Part shown: piece after piece, positions 1,170 through 8,976 of the stretch
Layout of the letters: every line of letters begins with the position of its first letter
How positions within the stretch are numbered: position 1 is the first letter of the stretch
DNA from: Candidatus Levybacteria bacterium RIFCSPHIGHO2_01_FULL_36_15
GTDB lineage: Bacteria > Patescibacteriota > Microgenomatia > Levybacterales > GWA1-39-11
Assembly: GCA_001782015.1 (NCBI GenBank)
Contig: MFNJ01000021.1
Coordinates: forward strand, 1 to 32,183
Direction: 5' to 3'
DNA length: 32,183 nucleotides
Made by a program: the position numbers and the translations under genes
Notes under the pieces: generated by a model
What the model saw: only the letters and a program-made list of their open reading frames with translations
The model's database searches: none
What the model was told of the DNA's origin: nothing

Positions 1170-3437
1170 ATGGTAAAAAGTACAGATCTTGTTGTCTGGT
1201 TGTCTGAAGTTGATAAAAGCGATGTTGCCTTTGTGGGAGGGAAAGGCGCGAATCTTGGGGAAATGATCCAGGCAAAATTTCCTGTTCCAAATGGATTTGT
1301 TCTGACCGCTTATTCTTATTTTCTGTTTTTAAAACAAAACAGCCTTGAAACAAAAATCAAACACTTGCTTGGTACTGTAAATTATGATGATCCGGTCTCC
1401 ATAGACCAGGTTTCCAGACACATAAAAAAAATTCTTCTGCATTCTGAAGTGCCTGTTGAGGTTGTAAAAAAAGTTTTTGAATATTACAAAATGCTTGGGG
1501 GAATGTTTTCCGACGCGCTTGTTGCAATAAGATCATCTGCTACATCTGAGGATTCAAAAACCGCGTCTTTTGCCGGACAGCAGGAAACATACTTAAATGT
1601 TAAAGGTGAAGCAAACGTAATTGCCAAAATAAAAGAAGGGTGGGCTTCTCTTTTTGAACCCAGAGCAATATTTTACAGACACGAAAATAAATTGGACCAG
1701 GTAAGATCCGGAATATCTCTTGTGGTGCAAAAAATGGTTGAGTCCGAGGCATCAGGCGTTATGTTTACAATAGACCCGATCACAAATGAAAAGACAAAAA
1801 TAATAATTGAGGCAATTTACGGTCTGGGTGAATACATTGTTCAGGGAAAAGTAACGCCTGACCACTATGAAGTTAAAAAGTCTGATTTGGATATTATCAG
1901 CAAAACCGCTTCCGAGCAAAATGTGATGCTTGTCAAAAAAGGAACGGACAACAGGGAAATTAATGTGCCAAGAGGCAGAAGCAGCAGGCAAAAAATAAAA
2001 GATAGTGAAATTATTGCGCTTGGGAAGCTTGGTAAACAGATAGAGCATCACTATTACTTTCCTCAGGATATTGAGTGGGCGCGCGAAAAAGGAAAATTAT
2101 ATATTGTTCAAACAAGACCAATCACAACAACAGGAAATAAACAAAAAAACAAGGAAGTAGAAAAAAATTTGTTTGATTCAAAAAATATAATTTTAAAAGG
2201 TGATCCGGCAAGTCCGGGGGTTGGGATCGGACACGTAAAAATACTTAAAAGCCCTAAGCAGATGAATAAAATAATGCAGGGGGACGTTTTAGTTGCGGAA
2301 TATACAAATCCAGACTATGTTCCGGCAATGAAAAAGTCCGGTGCTATTGTAACTGAAAGGGGAGGCAGGACTTCACACGCAGCAATTGTATCACGTGAAT
2401 TTGGGATTCCGGCTGTTGTAGGGGCTGAAAACGCTATGAAAGTTCTAAAAGACGATATGCTGATTACGGTGAACGGGAAAACAGGTGAAATTTATAAAGG
2501 GGGACTTCTGACCAAGTCCTTGATTCAACAAGAAGAACAATTACACCTTAAGACTTCAACAAAAGTATATGTTAACTTGGCTGAACCTGAAAGAGCAATT
2601 GAAGTAGCCAAAATGAATGTTGACGGAGTAGGTCTTTTGAGAGCGGAATTTATGATTGCCGCGATCGGTACTCACCCAAAAAAACTGATCAAAGAAGGAA
2701 AGCAGAAAGTTTTTGTTGATAAACTGAGCGATGGGATCAGTCAAATATGCAAAGCTTTTTACCCAAGACCAGTTCTTTACAGGGCTACCGATTTTAAGAC
2801 AAATGAATACAGAGATCTTAAAGGAGGGGAAATGTATGAGCCGGTTGAGCCTAATCCTATGCTTGGATATAGAGGTGCGTATAGATACATTAATGATGCT
2901 CAAGTTTTCCATTTGGAACTTGAAACGATAAAATATGTCAGAAACAAAAAAGGGCTTACAAATTTAAACCTAATGATACCGTTTGTAAGAACTGTTCACG
3001 AGCTTGAGGAAGTTAAAAAACTGGTTAATAAAAGTGGCCTTCATAGAAACCATTCCTTTAAATTATTCATGATGGTTGAAATACCTTCAAATGTTATTCT
3101 TCTTGAGGATTTCATTAAAGTTGGTATAGACGGAGTCTCGATTGGCTCAAATGATTTAACCATGCTTATTCTGGGAACAGATAGAGACAACAGTGAGGTA
3201 GCAACAGAATTTGATGAAAGAAATCCGGCCGTTCTCTGGGCACTTGAAAAAATTGTAAAGACGTGCAAAAAACACGGCATTGCTGCCGGCATCTGCGGAC
3301 AAGCTCCTTCTTCATATCCGGATCTTGTAGAAAAACTTGTGGATTGGGGAATTACAAGCGTCTCTATTTCACCTGATGCAATTAATACTACAAGGAAGGT
3401 AATTTATAAGCTAGAAAGAAAAATATTGAAAAAGTAA
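1170..3437 (+). CDS. ppsA: phosphoenolpyruvate synthase
   Basis: Pyruvate, water dikinase, converting pyruvate and ATP to PEP, AMP and phosphate in the cytoplasm, a gluconeogenic step. At 755 residues it is slightly shorter than the usual ~790. All three domains are present. The N-terminal ATP-grasp/pyruvate-binding domain has V-G-G-K-G-A-N-L-G-E at 22-31 and R-S-S-A-T-S-E-D at 121-128. The swivelling phosphohistidine domain has G-G-R-T-S-H-A-A with catalytic His403. The C-terminal TIM barrel has N-P-M-L-G-Y-R-G at 562-569, the acid motif M-V-E-I-P-S near 635-640, S-N-D-L-T near 660-664 and catalytic Cys709 in I-C-G-Q-A-P. The divergent enolase gene begins 3 nt after the stop, so the two are probably cotranscribed, linking pyruvate, PEP and 2-phosphoglycerate. 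No Shine-Dalgarno precedes the ATG; a weak promoter-like pair (TTGCAT near 1132, CACAAT near 1155) would again give an almost leaderless mRNA. Confidence 0.95.
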   Translation: MVKSTDLVVWLSEVDKSDVAFVGGKGANLGEMIQAKFPVPNGFVLTAYSYFLFLKQNSLETKIKHLLGTVNYDDPVSIDQVSRHIKKILLHSEVPVEVVKKVFEYYKMLGGMFSDALVAIRSSATSEDSKTASFAGQQETYLNVKGEANVIAKIKEGWASLFEPRAIFYRHENKLDQVRSGISLVVQKMVESEASGVMFTIDPITNEKTKIIIEAIYGLGEYIVQGKVTPDHYEVKKSDLDIISKTASEQNVMLVKKGTDNREINVPRGRSSRQKIKDSEIIALGKLGKQIEHHYYFPQDIEWAREKGKLYIVQTRPITTTGNKQKNKEVEKNLFDSKNIILKGDPASPGVGIGHVKILKSPKQMNKIMQGDVLVAEYTNPDYVPAMKKSGAIVTERGGRTSHAAIVSREFGIPAVVGAENAMKVLKDDMLITVNGKTGEIYKGGLLTKSLIQQEEQLHLKTSTKVYVNLAEPERAIEVAKMNVDGVGLLRAEFMIAAIGTHPKKLIKEGKQKVFVDKLSDGISQICKAFYPRPVLYRATDFKTNEYRDLKGGEMYEPVEPNPMLGYRGAYRYINDAQVFHLELETIKYVRNKKGLTNLNLMIPFVRTVHELEEVKKLVNKSGLHRNHSFKLFMMVEIPSNVILLEDFIKVGIDGVSIGSNDLTMLILGTDRDNSEVATEFDERNPAVLWALEKIVKTCKKHGIAAGICGQAPSSYPDLVEKLVDWGITSVSISPDAINTTRKVIYKLERKILKK

Positions 3438-3440
3438 GAC

Positions 3441-4697
3441 ATGACAAAGATAAAAGCAATCTATGCTGAAGAAATCTTTGATTCAAGGGGTGATCCCACA
3501 ATTGAAGCATCTGTTGAACTCTCAGACGGTACAATAACAAAATCTTCTGTTGCATCAGGTTCTTCAAAAGAAGCATTTGAAGCATATGAACTGCGTGACA
3601 ACGATCCCAACAGATTTAAGGGAAGGGGAGTACTCAAGGCAGTAACTTGCATAGCTGAAGTAATCGCTCCGGCTTTAATGGGTGTGGAAATTTCAAATCA
3701 AAGGGAAATTGATAAGCTACTTATAGCCTTGGATGGAACTCAAAATAAAAGCAGACTCGGAGCAAACTCAATTCTTGCTGTTTCACAGGCAACCGTAAAA
3801 GCGGGCGCCTTGGTCGCTCATCTGCCTTTACCTGTATATATAAGGACACTTGCCTTTTCAAAAGAGTTAAATAAGAAAATTCCTATACCCATTTTTAATA
3901 TTTTGGAAGGAGGAAGGTATGCTTCAAACAACCTGGATATTCAGGAGTTTTTGATAATTCCGGCTTCTTCAAAAGACTTTAAAGAGGCACTTAAAATAGG
4001 CGTAACAGTTTACCATGCACTCAGAGAAATATTAGTTGAAAGAAATCTTTCTACGTTAAGTGCGGAGGAAGGAGGATTTGCTCCTGAGGTTTCATCAAAC
4101 CAGGAAGCTTTTAATCTTATTAAGCAAACAATAGAAAGAGCTGTTTATCAATTTTCTTATGATGTTTTTTTGGGCATAGACGCCTGCGCCGGTAACTTTA
4201 AGACAAATAACGGTTACAAATTAATAGACCGGGAGATTGCTTTAAAAACTGAAGAAATGATCAGTTTTTATGATAATTTTGTCTCAGAATTTTCCCTGAT
4301 TTACATAGAGGACCCATTTGAAAAAAGCGACAAACAGGGATGGAAAACACTATACGACGCAATTTCACAAAAAGTCCTTATTGTGGGAGACGATTTGACA
4401 ACAACGAATCCTTACAGAGTTCAAAGCGCGATTGATGAAAAAATAATAAATGCACTGGTTATAAAACTAAACCAGATAGGCACCGTAACGGAAGCTATAG
4501 ATGTTTGTCAGAAGGCAAGGATGAATAACTTGAAAATCGTAGTTTCGCAAAGAAACAGTGAGTGCATGGATGGATTTATTGCAGATTTTGCGGTTGGTGT
4601 GGAAGCAAACTATGTAAAGTTTGGCGCGCCGGCACGCGAAAGAGTAATCAAATACAATAGATTGCTTGAAATAAACAGAGAAATTCAGACTCTTTAG
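3441..4697 (+). CDS. eno: divergent enolase-family protein
   Basis: Enolase-superfamily protein of 418 residues, close to the normal ~430, and clearly homologous to 2-phosphoglycerate dehydratase. It keeps D-S-R-G-x-P-T (14-20), N-K-S-x-L-G-A-N (102-109), Q-E-F (168-170), E-E-G-G-F-A-P (209-215), three metal ligands (Asp247, Glu290, Asp317), Lys342 and Lys393. Several strictly conserved enolase positions are changed. The mobile loop S-G-A-S-T-G reads S-G-S-S-K-E (39-44). The loop His of G-G-x-H is Tyr160. The S-H-R-S-G-E motif is S-Q-R-N-S-E, replacing the substrate-binding His with Gln370. One residue is missing after G-A-P (395-397). It may therefore be a weak enolase, or act on a different acid or sugar. 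The reading frame is intact, so it is not a pseudogene. It lies 3 nt downstream of ppsA and converges with rsmI, sharing 4 bp at the stop codons. Confidence 0.8.
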   Translation: MTKIKAIYAEEIFDSRGDPTIEASVELSDGTITKSSVASGSSKEAFEAYELRDNDPNRFKGRGVLKAVTCIAEVIAPALMGVEISNQREIDKLLIALDGTQNKSRLGANSILAVSQATVKAGALVAHLPLPVYIRTLAFSKELNKKIPIPIFNILEGGRYASNNLDIQEFLIIPASSKDFKEALKIGVTVYHALREILVERNLSTLSAEEGGFAPEVSSNQEAFNLIKQTIERAVYQFSYDVFLGIDACAGNFKTNNGYKLIDREIALKTEEMISFYDNFVSEFSLIYIEDPFEKSDKQGWKTLYDAISQKVLIVGDDLTTTNPYRVQSAIDEKIINALVIKLNQIGTVTEAIDVCQKARMNNLKIVVSQRNSECMDGFIADFAVGVEANYVKFGAPARERVIKYNRLLEINREIQTL

Positions 4698-5437
4698 CGT
4701 ACGTGCGATTCACTTTTTAGATTAAAAAGTACCGTAAATTCACCTTTGGGATTTGATGTCTCAAATTTGGCAATTAAATTTGAAAGATTATCCGATACAT
4801 TCTCTTCAAAAACTTTTGTAAGCTCCCGGCCCAAAGAAATTCTTATGTTTCCAAAGACATTCTTCAAAACATAAAGCGTTTCAAGTACTCTGTGGGGAGA
4901 TTCAAAAAATATTACGGTAGGGTTAAGGCCATTTCGGGAAAGATCCTCAAGCGAACTTTTAAGATTACTTAAATGCTTTTCTTTTTTTAATTTTGTTTTA
5001 GGAAGGAAACCCAAAAAAAAATATTTATCTGTTGGAAGACCGGAACAAACAAGAGCCGCAGCAACTGCTGATGCTCCAGGAACAGAAATAAGTTTTATGC
5101 CTTTGGATAAAGCAAAATGTACCAATTTATATCCCGGATCAGAGATCAAAGGCGTTCCGGCTTCTGAAACTAAAGCAACATTATAACCTTTTTCAAGAAG
5201 GTTCATGAATTCGTAAGCCTTTTCGTTCTCAATATATTCGTTGAAATGTAAAATTTTTGGGTGTTTATTTTCATCACAAAGCTCAGGATACCTTTTTTTT
5301 ATCTCAGACAATAAAGTGCCGGTTTTTTGAGGATTTTCCGTAAGGATGTAGTCAACCTGCTGCAGAATTTTAATTGCTCTTATGGTTATATCTTGCAAAT
5401 TCCCTATTGGTGTTGATACAATGTATAAATTGTTCAT
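4694..5437 (-). CDS. rsmI: 16S rRNA (cytidine-1402-2'-O)-methyltransferase RsmI
   Basis: SAM-dependent tetrapyrrole-methylase-fold enzyme that 2'-O-methylates C1402 in the decoding centre of 16S rRNA. The 247-residue protein opens with the diagnostic L-Y-I-V-S-T-P-I-G-N-L-x-D-I-T. It continues with V-S-E-A-G-T-P-L-I-S-D-P-G (SAM site), P-G-A-S-A-V and F-F-E-S-P-H-R. I set the start at the ATG at 5437 because the family begins within three residues of L-Y-I-V. The 29 residues that an upstream ATG (5524) would add come from a low-complexity intergenic repeat. It converges on the enolase gene with overlapping stop codons and diverges from dedA. The length lacks the extra C-terminal extension seen in some members. 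Confidence 0.92.
   Translation of the reverse strand: MNNLYIVSTPIGNLQDITIRAIKILQQVDYILTENPQKTGTLLSEIKKRYPELCDENKHPKILHFNEYIENEKAYEFMNLLEKGYNVALVSEAGTPLISDPGYKLVHFALSKGIKLISVPGASAVAAALVCSGLPTDKYFFLGFLPKTKLKKEKHLSNLKSSLEDLSRNGLNPTVIFFESPHRVLETLYVLKNVFGNIRISLGRELTKVFEENVSDNLSNLIAKFETSNPKGEFTVLFNLKSESHVR
4712..4730. terminator. possible AT-rich bidirectional hairpin at the eno/rsmI junction
   Basis: Perfect 8-bp inverted repeat ACTTTTTA-GAT-TAAAAAGT located just past the enolase stop, inside the last codons of rsmI. Symmetric A and T runs could terminate from either side, but the stem has only two G-C pairs, so this is tentative. Confidence 0.35.
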
Positions 5438-5443
5438 ATCTAT

Positions 5444-5507
5444 GAAATCCAAAATTCTAAATCCGAAATACGAAACAATACTAAATGACCAAAATACAAA
5501 ATTTAAA
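5444..5507. repeat. degenerate AAATCC/AAAATAC-type intergenic repeat
   Basis: The spacer between rsmI and dedA is built of loosely repeated 9-12 nt units such as GAAATCC, AAAATTC, TAAATCCG, AAATACG and AAAATAC. It is not coding; translation of the minus strand gives a low-complexity Phe/Ile-rich peptide. Function unknown. Confidence 0.45.
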
Positions 5508-5564
5508 ATGTTTTGCAAACTCAAACTTAGTTTTGAATTTAAAAATTAGAATTTTAATTAAATT

Positions 5565-6191
5565 ATGCTGGAATTTTTAGCACACTATATTATACAACTA
5601 ATCCAAACTACAAGTTATTTTGGAATTTTTCTCCTCATGTTTTTGGAATCCGCGCTTCTTCCTATTCCTTCTGAGGTTACAATGCCCTTCTCGGGTTTTC
5701 TGGCTGCTCAGGGAAAGCTTGATTTTTGGCTTATTGTTATAACGGGAACTATTGCAAATTTGTCCGGCTCACTTTTGGCATATTATATTGGATACTACCT
5801 TGAAGAACACGTTCTGCTAGGTTTAATCAAAAAATACGGTAAATTTATACTGGTTACTGAAGAAGAATATAACCATGCATACAAGTGGTTTTCAAAATAC
5901 GGTGATAAGGTTATTTTTATCTCAAGACTTTTACCGGCTGTCAGAACAGTAATCTCCCTTCCTGCAGGAGTTTTCAAAATGAATTTAAAGAAATTCGTTA
6001 TCTATACTACTGTTGGGTGTTTTATATGGTCTGTTTTTCTTACGTATATAGGTTTCAAGCTTGGTGAAAACTGGGCTTCCCTGGAAGGATATTTTAGGCA
6101 ATTTCAATATCTTATTGCAGGATTATTTATTTTGGCAGTAATATATTATATAGAAAAGAAGCTAAAGTTCAGGAAAAAGTTTGTGAAATAG
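5565..6191 (+). CDS. DedA/SNARE-associated family membrane protein
   Basis: DedA-family integral membrane protein of 208 residues, normal length. Family members are thought to flip or transport polyprenyl-phosphate or phospholipid carriers and support membrane homeostasis. The sequence has the re-entrant-loop acid in E-S-A-L-L-P-I-P-S-E-V (about 28-38). It also has the second signature S-R-L-L-P-A-V-R-T (about 125-133), with the conserved Arg, followed by P-A-G-V-F-x-M. Hydrophobic segments lie near 15-35, 50-75, 145-165 and 178-195. It is divergent from rsmI and convergent with lexA (15 nt between stops). No Shine-Dalgarno precedes the ATG. A carrier-recycling role would fit the glycosyltransferase module further along, but the substrate cannot be read from sequence. 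Confidence 0.88.
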   Translation: MLEFLAHYIIQLIQTTSYFGIFLLMFLESALLPIPSEVTMPFSGFLAAQGKLDFWLIVITGTIANLSGSLLAYYIGYYLEEHVLLGLIKKYGKFILVTEEEYNHAYKWFSKYGDKVIFISRLLPAVRTVISLPAGVFKMNLKKFVIYTTVGCFIWSVFLTYIGFKLGENWASLEGYFRQFQYLIAGLFILAVIYYIEKKLKFRKKFVK

Positions 6192-6206: not shown

Positions 6207-6854
6207 TTAATTTTTAAACTTCCTTACCAATCCTACAACGATTCCCTGTATTTTTACGGATTTTGGATAAATTGGCTCCATTTGGGAATTTGCTGGGCGC
6301 AGGATAACTTTTTCTCCATCTTTGTGAAACCTTTTGAGTGTCGCAAGACCTTCATCAACCAGCGCAACTACAATATCGCCGTTATTTGCCATATCCGATT
6401 TTTCTATAACAACAAAGTCTCCATCCAAAATTCCATCTTCTATCATTGAGCTTCCTTTTACCTGCAGTACATAGGCAGTTTTTTTACCTGAAATCATGGC
6501 GGAGGCAATTTCAAAAGAAGCTTCAGGATCCGTGTACGGTTCAAGCGGTCTTCCGGCAGCTATATAACCCATGAGCGGTAAAGAGATGCTCGGACCTTTT
6601 GAGCGAACTACTCCTCCGACCGCTGCAAGAATAATATCCTTCTTTAAAATTTTAAGAGTCCTTGTGTTCCCCTCAACTTTTTGGACATAACCTTTATCAA
6701 CAAGATTTTTGATGATAGTATGTATTGTTGAAACGCTTTTGTTACCCATTGCATCAGCCATCTCCCTGAGGGTTGGAGAGTAGCCGTTTTGTTCCTGAAA
6801 CTGCAAAATAAATGTAAGCAGATTTCTTTCTTTTTTATAAAGCACCGCAGTCAT
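6207..6854 (-). CDS. lexA: SOS response repressor LexA
   Basis: Repressor-protease of the SOS regulon, 215 residues. The N-terminal winged helix-turn-helix (about 5-70) has the typical G-Y-S-P-T-L-R-E-M-A and S-V-S-T-I-H elements. The C-terminal S24 peptidase domain holds the self-cleavage site Ala100-Gly101 (I-A-A-G-R-P), catalytic Ser136 in G-S-S-M and Lys174 in A-T-L-K-R-F. It should dimerise on operators and cleave itself when RecA is activated. It diverges from uvrB across 142 bp. Its own promoter is consensus-like, with a perfect inverted repeat TTGTC-N6-GACAA on the -35 box as a candidate autoregulatory operator. No Shine-Dalgarno precedes its ATG. Confidence 0.95.
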   Translation of the reverse strand: MTAVLYKKERNLLTFILQFQEQNGYSPTLREMADAMGNKSVSTIHTIIKNLVDKGYVQKVEGNTRTLKILKKDIILAAVGGVVRSKGPSISLPLMGYIAAGRPLEPYTDPEASFEIASAMISGKKTAYVLQVKGSSMIEDGILDGDFVVIEKSDMANNGDIVVALVDEGLATLKRFHKDGEKVILRPANSQMEPIYPKSVKIQGIVVGLVRKFKN

Positions 6855-6996: not shown

Positions 6997-8976
6997 ATGG
7001 GTTTTCAATTGAAATCAAAATTCAAGCCTACGGGTGATCAGCCGCAGGCTATAAAAAAATTAACAGACGGAATTTTATCGGGCGTTAAAAATCAGGTTTT
7101 GCTTGGTGTAACAGGAAGCGGCAAAACATTCACAATTGCAAATGCCATAAAAAACGTAAACCGGCCTACATTGGTCATTTCCCACAACAAAACGCTTGCA
7201 GGCCAACTCTACCAGGAATTGCGCGATTTTTTCCCTAAAGACGCCGTTTCATACTTTGTTTCATATTACGACTATTATCAGCCGGAAGCATACATTCCGC
7301 AAACTGATACATATATTTCAAAAGAAACGGAAATAAACGAGGAAATAGACAAACTTAGGCTCGCCGCAACAACTAATATCCTGACGCAAAGCAACACGAT
7401 TGTGGTAGCATCGGTTTCATGTATTTATAACCTTGGTTCACCCACCGGATATGAAAATTCAATTTTCAAAATCTCCAAAGGTGACACAACGGATAGAAAA
7501 GATCTGATGAATAGGTTTATTGACCTTATGTATCAGAGAAACGACTACAACTTTAAAAGGGGAACTTTTAGAGCCAGAGGAGAAGTGATAGAACTTTTTC
7601 CTGCCTATGAAGATTTGGGAATAAGGATAGTTCTGGAAGAGGAAAAAATTAACAGTATTGAAAAAGTGAATCCGCTAACCGGTGAAATTCTGGAAAAAAA
7701 AGAATCGCTTCTTATTTATCCGGCAAAACACTATATTACTGACCAGAAAAGTTATGAGGTGATTTTTGAAGACATAAGAAGTGACCTGAAAAAAAGAGCA
7801 GAGGAACTAAAAAAACTTGGAAAAAATTTGGAAGCGCAAAGACTGACTCAAAAAGTGGAATATGATCTTAGGATGATTAAAGAGGTAGGATATGTAAACG
7901 GAATAGAAAATTATTCAAGATACTTTGACGGGAGAAAACCCGGCGAAGCACCCTATAGCCTTCTTGAATATTTTGAAATGGCTGCAAAAAACTGGCTTTT
8001 GGTCGTTGACGAATCCCACATGACCATTCCACAAATCAGAGGAATGTATAACGGTGACAGGGCAAGAAAACAGGTACTTATTGATTACGGATTTAGACTG
8101 CCTTCGGCTTTTGACAACAGGCCTTTAAATTTTTCAGAATTTCAAAATAAAATCCACCAAACTATTCATATGAGTGCGACTCCCAGTATTTGGGAAATAG
8201 ATATTTCCGGAAAAAATAATATAGTAGAACAGCTTATTAGACCAACCGGTATTGTTGATCCAGAAATCATTGTTAAAAAAACCGAGGGCCAGATTCAGGA
8301 TTTGATAAAGGAAATATCACTAATTGTTAAAAAGAGTGAACGGGCGCTTGTTACTACGCTGACAAAAAGAATGGCAGAGGATTTGGCGACATTTTTGGAG
8401 GAAAAAGGGATAAAAGTCGCTTATTTACACTCGGAAGTTAACACATTAGACAGACAGGATGTATTGGATAATCTGAGGGAAGGAAAATTTGATGTTCTTG
8501 TGGGCATAAATTTATTAAGAGAAGGTCTTGATCTGCCTGAAGTTTCCCGCGTTTTTATTCTGGATGCGGATAAAGAGGGGTTTTTACGGAGCCGTACTTC
8601 GCTTATTCAAACAATGGGAAGAGCCGCCAGAAGAATAGATTCAAAAGTTATCATGTACGCAGATAACATTACGGATTCAATGAAAAACGCGATCAGAGAA
8701 GTTGACAGAAGAAGAAAAAGGCAGCTTGATTATAATAAAAAACACAAAATTACCCCTAAAACAGTAAAAAAAGTAATAAGAGCAAAGCTTATAGAAAGAG
8801 AAGGAAACGTGGACGATGATATGAAGCCTCTTTTTAACAAAGAGTTTTTATTTCCCGAGGAAAGGGAAAAGGCAATTAAAATACTCCGGCAGGAAATGCA
8901 GGAGGCGGCCCGCATGCTTGATTTTGAAACCGCAGCTCTTTTGAGGGATAAAATTAAGTTTCTTCTGCAAAAATAA
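6997..8976 (+). CDS. uvrB: excinuclease ABC subunit B
   Basis: Helicase-like damage-verification subunit of nucleotide excision repair; receives DNA from UvrA and recruits UvrC. Full length at 659 residues. Walker A is G-V-T-G-S-G-K-T (37-44). The beta-hairpin that probes the duplex is Y-Y-D-Y-Y-Q-P-E-A-Y (roughly 92-101), followed by the T-Y-I-S-K-E motif. Walker B is V-D-E-S-H, helicase motif V/VI is around G-I-N-L-L-R-E-G-L-D and Q-T-M-G-R-A-A-R, and the C-terminal UVR coiled coil lies near 625-658 for UvrC contact. The ATG follows an extended -10 element almost directly, so the mRNA is probably leaderless. It is followed by a clear terminator, so it forms its own unit, facing away from lexA. 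Confidence 0.97.
   Translation: MGFQLKSKFKPTGDQPQAIKKLTDGILSGVKNQVLLGVTGSGKTFTIANAIKNVNRPTLVISHNKTLAGQLYQELRDFFPKDAVSYFVSYYDYYQPEAYIPQTDTYISKETEINEEIDKLRLAATTNILTQSNTIVVASVSCIYNLGSPTGYENSIFKISKGDTTDRKDLMNRFIDLMYQRNDYNFKRGTFRARGEVIELFPAYEDLGIRIVLEEEKINSIEKVNPLTGEILEKKESLLIYPAKHYITDQKSYEVIFEDIRSDLKKRAEELKKLGKNLEAQRLTQKVEYDLRMIKEVGYVNGIENYSRYFDGRKPGEAPYSLLEYFEMAAKNWLLVVDESHMTIPQIRGMYNGDRARKQVLIDYGFRLPSAFDNRPLNFSEFQNKIHQTIHMSATPSIWEIDISGKNNIVEQLIRPTGIVDPEIIVKKTEGQIQDLIKEISLIVKKSERALVTTLTKRMAEDLATFLEEKGIKVAYLHSEVNTLDRQDVLDNLREGKFDVLVGINLLREGLDLPEVSRVFILDADKEGFLRSRTSLIQTMGRAARRIDSKVIMYADNITDSMKNAIREVDRRRKRQLDYNKKHKITPKTVKKVIRAKLIEREGNVDDDMKPLFNKEFLFPEEREKAIKILRQEMQEAARMLDFETAALLRDKIKFLLQK

Follow-up and report, generated by a model that had tools for sequence, protein, structure and literature searches.

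The gene that follows ppsA in the 32,183-nucleotide stretch of Candidatus Levybacteria DNA analysed here (the window) is a real, intact member of the enolase family in which two active-site histidines are replaced. The same genome encodes a second enolase with a canonical active site, and losses of core residues recur among relatives of the ppsA-linked protein (eno-A). We consider it reasonably probable that eno-A is a catalytically impaired enolase that has been retained for a non-catalytic or changed role.

An intact enolase gene downstream of ppsA

The genes of the window that concern us are the following.

1170..3437, + strand, ppsA-A, PEP synthase (family scan, signature residues)
3441..4697, + strand, eno-A, altered enolase paralogue of 418 aa (ORF list, Pfam, NCBIfam, predicted fold)
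4694..5524, - strand, rsmI-like gene, convergent
5565-6191, DedA-like gene
6207-6854, lexA
6997-8976, uvrB

The last four names are presumptive ones, given from the sequences; together these genes served as the marker of the conserved eno-A locus in relatives. eno-A begins with an ATG 3 nt after the ppsA stop, on the same strand, and has no internal stop, as had been claimed in the earlier note. All 12 signature residues of PpsA are intact in ppsA-A, including phospho-His403 (codon at 2376), and the idea that the PpsA of the window is also degenerated was therefore rejected. It was the only PpsA found in a search of the source genome. Positions 692-1123 hold an ORF of 143 aa with many repeated FATKxDLK-type units and without a Pfam match.

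The eno-A protein matched TIGR01060 over its full length (residues 4-416) with 446.4 bits (cut-off 300), and Enolase_N and Enolase_C (PF03952 and PF00113) with 155.8 and 269.2 bits, respectively. Its scores against MR_MLE_C (24.3 bits, cut-off 29.4) and menC (20.3 bits, cut-off 200.65) were weak and lay below the thresholds; the earlier suggestion of a new acid-sugar dehydratase (mandelate racemase/MLE group) is not supported. An AlphaFold2 model, computed with 27 named relatives, predicted an enolase fold (pLDDT 92.8, pTM 0.92). Compared with the PDB by Foldseek, this model gave query-normalised TM values of 0.92-0.96 to enolases, and nearly all of the 50 matches listed were annotated enolases, of bacterial, archaeal and eukaryotic origin. 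eno-A is thus an enolase proper by Pfam, NCBIfam, phylogeny and fold.

Active-site residues of eno-A

Residues were mapped by alignment with E. coli enolase, whose numbering is used below (residues 160, 169, 210 and 247 of eno-A are 159, 168, 209 and 246 in E. coli), and we take the aligned positions to have the meaning established for enolase. The relevant codons are the following.

3555..3572, + strand, mobile loop S39-G-S-S-K-E44 (canonical SGASTG), Ser42 kept
3918..3920, + strand, Tyr160 at the position of the catalytic-loop His (E. coli His159)
3945-3947, + strand, Glu169, kept
4068-4070, + strand, Glu210, kept
4179..4181, + strand, Asp247, metal ligand, kept
4308-4310, + strand, Glu290, metal ligand, kept
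4389-4391, + strand, Asp317, metal ligand, kept
4464..4466, + strand, Lys342, kept
4548..4559, + strand, Gln370-Arg371-Asn372-Ser373 for His-Arg-Ser-Gly (E. coli 370-373, SHRSGE stretch), Arg kept
4617-4619, + strand, Lys393, kept

The three metal ligands (D246, E290, D317), catalytic Lys342 and Glu209, and Lys393 are thus all present, together with S42, E168 and R371. The two histidines that close the site, His159 of the G-G-x-H motif and His370 of the S-H-R-S-G motif, are replaced by Tyr160 and Gln370; on ligands, lysines and histidines alike the earlier note was right. The substitutions are H159Y, H370Q, S372N, G373S and G44E. An alternative alignment does not account for them: relatives have the His in the same columns.

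Two other claimed anomalies held only in part. The mobile loop had been described as replaced, but Ser39, Gly40 and Ser42 are retained and Lys43 is common in the family (among 39 unaltered members of clade A, defined below, position 43 is Thr in 5 and Lys in 8); only Glu44 is specific to eno-A among the aligned rows compared. The deletion of one residue near the C-terminus exists, but 51 clade rows cover this stretch and six of them share it; all six are of eno-A's family, and the pocket is unaltered in three. The deletion and Lys43 are both ordinary, because relatives having no other enolase carry them.

In 144 unaltered enolases, 68 alignment columns show a constancy of 97% or more. eno-A departs at six of these (P38A, H159Y, H370Q, S372N, G373S, T375C); the 39 unaltered clade-A members depart at 0.74 on average and at no more than 4. 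Three of these six departures fall at active-site columns, a weak enrichment (p 0.063). In a study of M. tuberculosis enolase (PMC10619443), which backs part of this assignment, the mutants E163A, E204A, D241A and K335A were non-functional and S42A kept an activity of about 5%; His154, which corresponds to H159, touched substrate and product in every conformation. All four of the residues that are essential by this measure are retained in eno-A, which counts against a loss of activity.

A second enolase, and repeated loss of active-site residues in relatives

The source genome (1.37 Mb, 60 contigs, 91.7% complete) contains a second enolase of 429 aa on contig C48, 40% identical to eno-A and canonical at all active-site residues checked. 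The search for a second canonical enolase that had been recommended was thus positive, and eno-A is not the only enolase of its genome. The C48 enolase belongs with second-type enolases in a clade of 14 rows, all from eno-A's order. A sequencing or contamination artefact is unlikely, as the pattern repeats across many genomes and the C48 enolase groups with the others of the order. A genome search found no pyruvate kinase and no member of the iPGM_N family, and dPGM-like matches were below the cut-off.

An enolase was found in 74 of the order's 82 genomes. The tree separates the eno-A-type enolases (clade A, 54 rows) from several other kinds, including the 14-row clade. A clade-A enolase is normally the sole, canonical enolase of its genome and lies directly downstream of ppsA. 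Enolases of a compact form, 351-361 aa long and canonical in their core residues, were seen in G001, G013 and G037 (L202, L203, L204).

Ten core residues were compared. One or more of them had been lost in 15 of the 54 clade-A rows, all with intact frames, whereas every one of the 79 named reference enolases and every full-length non-A enolase of the order had all ten. The residues changed were H370 (11/15), H159 (8/14), E209 (6), and D246, D317 and E168 (5 each); E290, K342 and K393 were retained in 15, 14 and 13 of the 15 copies, respectively. Two fragments at contig ends (G033, G066) were altered too. The tree indicates about seven separate events of alteration (7-8 in bootstraps), at least four of which are forced by starred branches. 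The nearest relative of eno-A (support 94/75) belongs to G007, a genome in which no second enolase was found; the pocket of this relative is unaltered.

Another intact enolase was present in 11 of the 15 genomes with an altered clade-A copy versus 5 of the 39 with an unaltered one (Fisher p 3.9e-5, ignoring phylogeny). In a second sample, genomes of the same class lying outside the order, an altered copy occurred in 12 of 21 two-enolase genomes versus 0 of 40 single-enolase genomes (p 1.7e-7, again ignoring phylogeny); in 11 of these 12 it was the eno-A-like, KFG-type copy that was altered, and in G183 the other one. A kinship-aware test of independent pairs, with 3 pairs only, gave p 0.5. There are exceptions in both directions: of the order's 16 genomes that have a clade-A copy and another intact enolase, five (G021, G023, G024, G052, G053) have an unaltered clade-A copy, and in G012, G031, G032 and G074 (94-98% complete) the copy is altered and no second enolase was found.

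The altered copies are retained

None of the 15 altered frames contains an internal stop. Pairs of altered copies excluding eno-A showed 51-68% identity, with saturated synonymous sites (pS 0.74-0.83) and low pN (0.20-0.33), and eno-A compared with its two nearest relatives showed 55% identity (pS 0.72-0.76, pN 0.28-0.29). Neutral simulation to equal divergence produced 11-14 stops on average (6-7 at half divergence), and at most 1 run in 100 was stop-free. The frames are thus intact under purifying selection, and the codon evidence argues for selective retention of the altered enolases. D98, T100, K103, N109, E290, D291, Q345, G347 and others are constant in all 15 altered copies. Catalytic columns changed more often (31%) than other constant columns (14%; p 0.006), and therefore the fold appears to be kept while catalysis goes. 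Loss of catalytic residues from genes under selection, the combination expected of pseudoenzymes, was thus found; eno-A itself has lost two His and a Ser.

These data bear on the proposal that eno-A is a redundant relic heading for loss. Several altered copies lie on long branches and some genomes have no eno-A at the locus, as a relic would predict, but stop-free frames, low pN at saturated synonymous sites and the invariant residues all point the other way, and we find this reading very improbable. The "moonlighting relic" of the earlier note fits the presence of a second canonical enolase, but is disfavoured in the sense of a decaying gene.

PpsA at the same locus

At the same locus in relatives, the 12-residue signature of PpsA is degraded in 22 genomes, most of which also lack the C-terminal barrel, and intact in 44. 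A second PpsA, mostly of about 770-890 aa in open frame, was found in 12 of the 22 genomes with an altered locus PpsA versus 0 of the 44 with an intact one. The enolase is altered next to an intact PpsA in the source genome (G000), G060, G072 and, on a fragment, G073; the reverse holds in G024, G025 and G071; and both are altered in G001, G006, G031, G032, G037, G057, G074 and G077. eno-A and PpsA therefore degenerate independently of each other.

A short PpsA of about 345-450 aa remains at the rsmI/lexA/uvrB locus in the absence of eno-A in L218, L219, L221, L217, L216, L214, L215, L212 and L213. It lacks the phospho-His motif and most of the PEP-binding barrel, and in several genomes it adjoins a gene that we take, from its sequence, to be phosphoglycerate-mutase-like. 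The idea that a short PpsA (ATP-grasp and phospho-His piece) and enolase form a two-part kinase was rejected, since the phospho-His and ATP-grasp residues are also lost. The PpsA of G026 (L231:3950-6250), 53% identical to that of the window, has 11 of the 12 signature residues and Pro at the phospho-His position; this genome also carries a second PpsA.

Possible role of eno-A

The earlier note's "changed enolase" fits an altered pocket alongside a second canonical enolase. eno-A would be the lineage's ancestral, ppsA-linked enolase, which the gain of the canonical C48 enolase may have freed from the need for 2-phosphoglycerate turnover. Its enolase activity would then have been lost or strongly lowered through His159Tyr, His370Gln and Ser372Asn, with the full fold presumably retained and selection maintaining a role independent of 2-phosphoglycerate turnover. 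Such a role would most likely lie at the PEP node beside PpsA and consist in binding either another protein or a ligand (PEP or 2-phosphoglycerate). Because PpsA remains beside eno-A, our preferred guess is that eno-A serves PpsA as a partner, structurally or by binding a ligand.

Alternatively, eno-A may still work as an enolase whose kinetics have been tuned, perhaps to gluconeogenesis beside PpsA, with the second enolase serving glycolysis. The retained metal ligands, lysines, glutamates, Arg371 and Ser42 are consistent with this, as are the intact ppsA, the only one found in the genome, and the failure to find a pyruvate kinase there. However, both His and Ser372 are gone, and relatives at the same position have lost metal ligands as well (G031, G060, G074, G125, G174), so that activity cannot generally be what keeps the gene; we regard a working enolase as fairly unlikely. 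It also seems unlikely that eno-A has kept the enolase fold but become an enzyme for a different substrate. Such a change would agree with the pocket shared by three genomes of another family in the class, and with the occurrence of H159Y and H370Q in both eno-A and the distant G089, but among the altered copies the replacing residues differ between lineages, resembling release rather than a single new chemistry, and ppsA was the only pathway gene recognised directly adjoining eno-A among its neighbours in the window. The idea of a carboxyphosphonoenolpyruvate synthase was dropped, as no phosphonate gene was recognised next to eno-A and nothing useful appeared in the literature.

The shared pocket is that of the second enolases of G185, G152 and G195 (L245, L259, L262; 63-78% identity), which have E209T, D246N/Q, D317C and R371S in common; it is a conserved new pocket, and the protein is perhaps a new enzyme. 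The G089 enolase (L264) has E209L in addition; its open frame of 659 aa includes a tail rich in Pro and Thr, about 200 residues long.

More tentatively, and with some doubt on our part, both the ppsA-linked enolase and PpsA of this class of small-genome bacteria may have an additional, non-catalytic function that survives the loss of catalysis. A second copy would take over the chemistry, and the old protein would lose its active site (PpsA even its C-terminal barrel) and persist as an intact gene at the locus, so that evolution would repeatedly have parted a hidden function from the enzyme activity. Moonlighting of enolase is often claimed and is difficult to tell apart from the glycolytic role. 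Here separate lineages seem to drop catalytic residues and yet keep the protein, in the case of PpsA as well as enolase; what has stayed conserved can thus help to find what the second function needs. A match to "enolase" may also be wrongly read as a glycolytic step in these bacteria, as in the four enolase-positive genomes in which only an altered copy was found.

Comparison with known enolases

For Microgenomates, several enolase clusters and lateral transfer have been described, CPR enolases being patchy and partly transferred; the available part of that study makes no mention of the loss of active-site residues seen in eno-A (Jaffe et al. 2020, PMC7304191). In the portions of the open-access full-text literature that were covered, we found no report of altered enolases in these bacteria. 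eno-A resembles enolase (phosphopyruvate hydratase) in its full-length sequence match, fold, metal ligands and pair of lysines, and differs from it by His159Tyr, His370Gln and Ser372Asn and by the canonical enolase in the same genome. Among glycolytic enzymes, known pseudoenzyme paralogues include mammalian ENO4 and plant ENO3, which share with eno-A the enolase fold, a doubtful active site and an active paralogue alongside. Unlike these, the present case is bacterial and class-wide, has arisen repeatedly in separate lineages, and adjoins a PpsA that does likewise in relatives.
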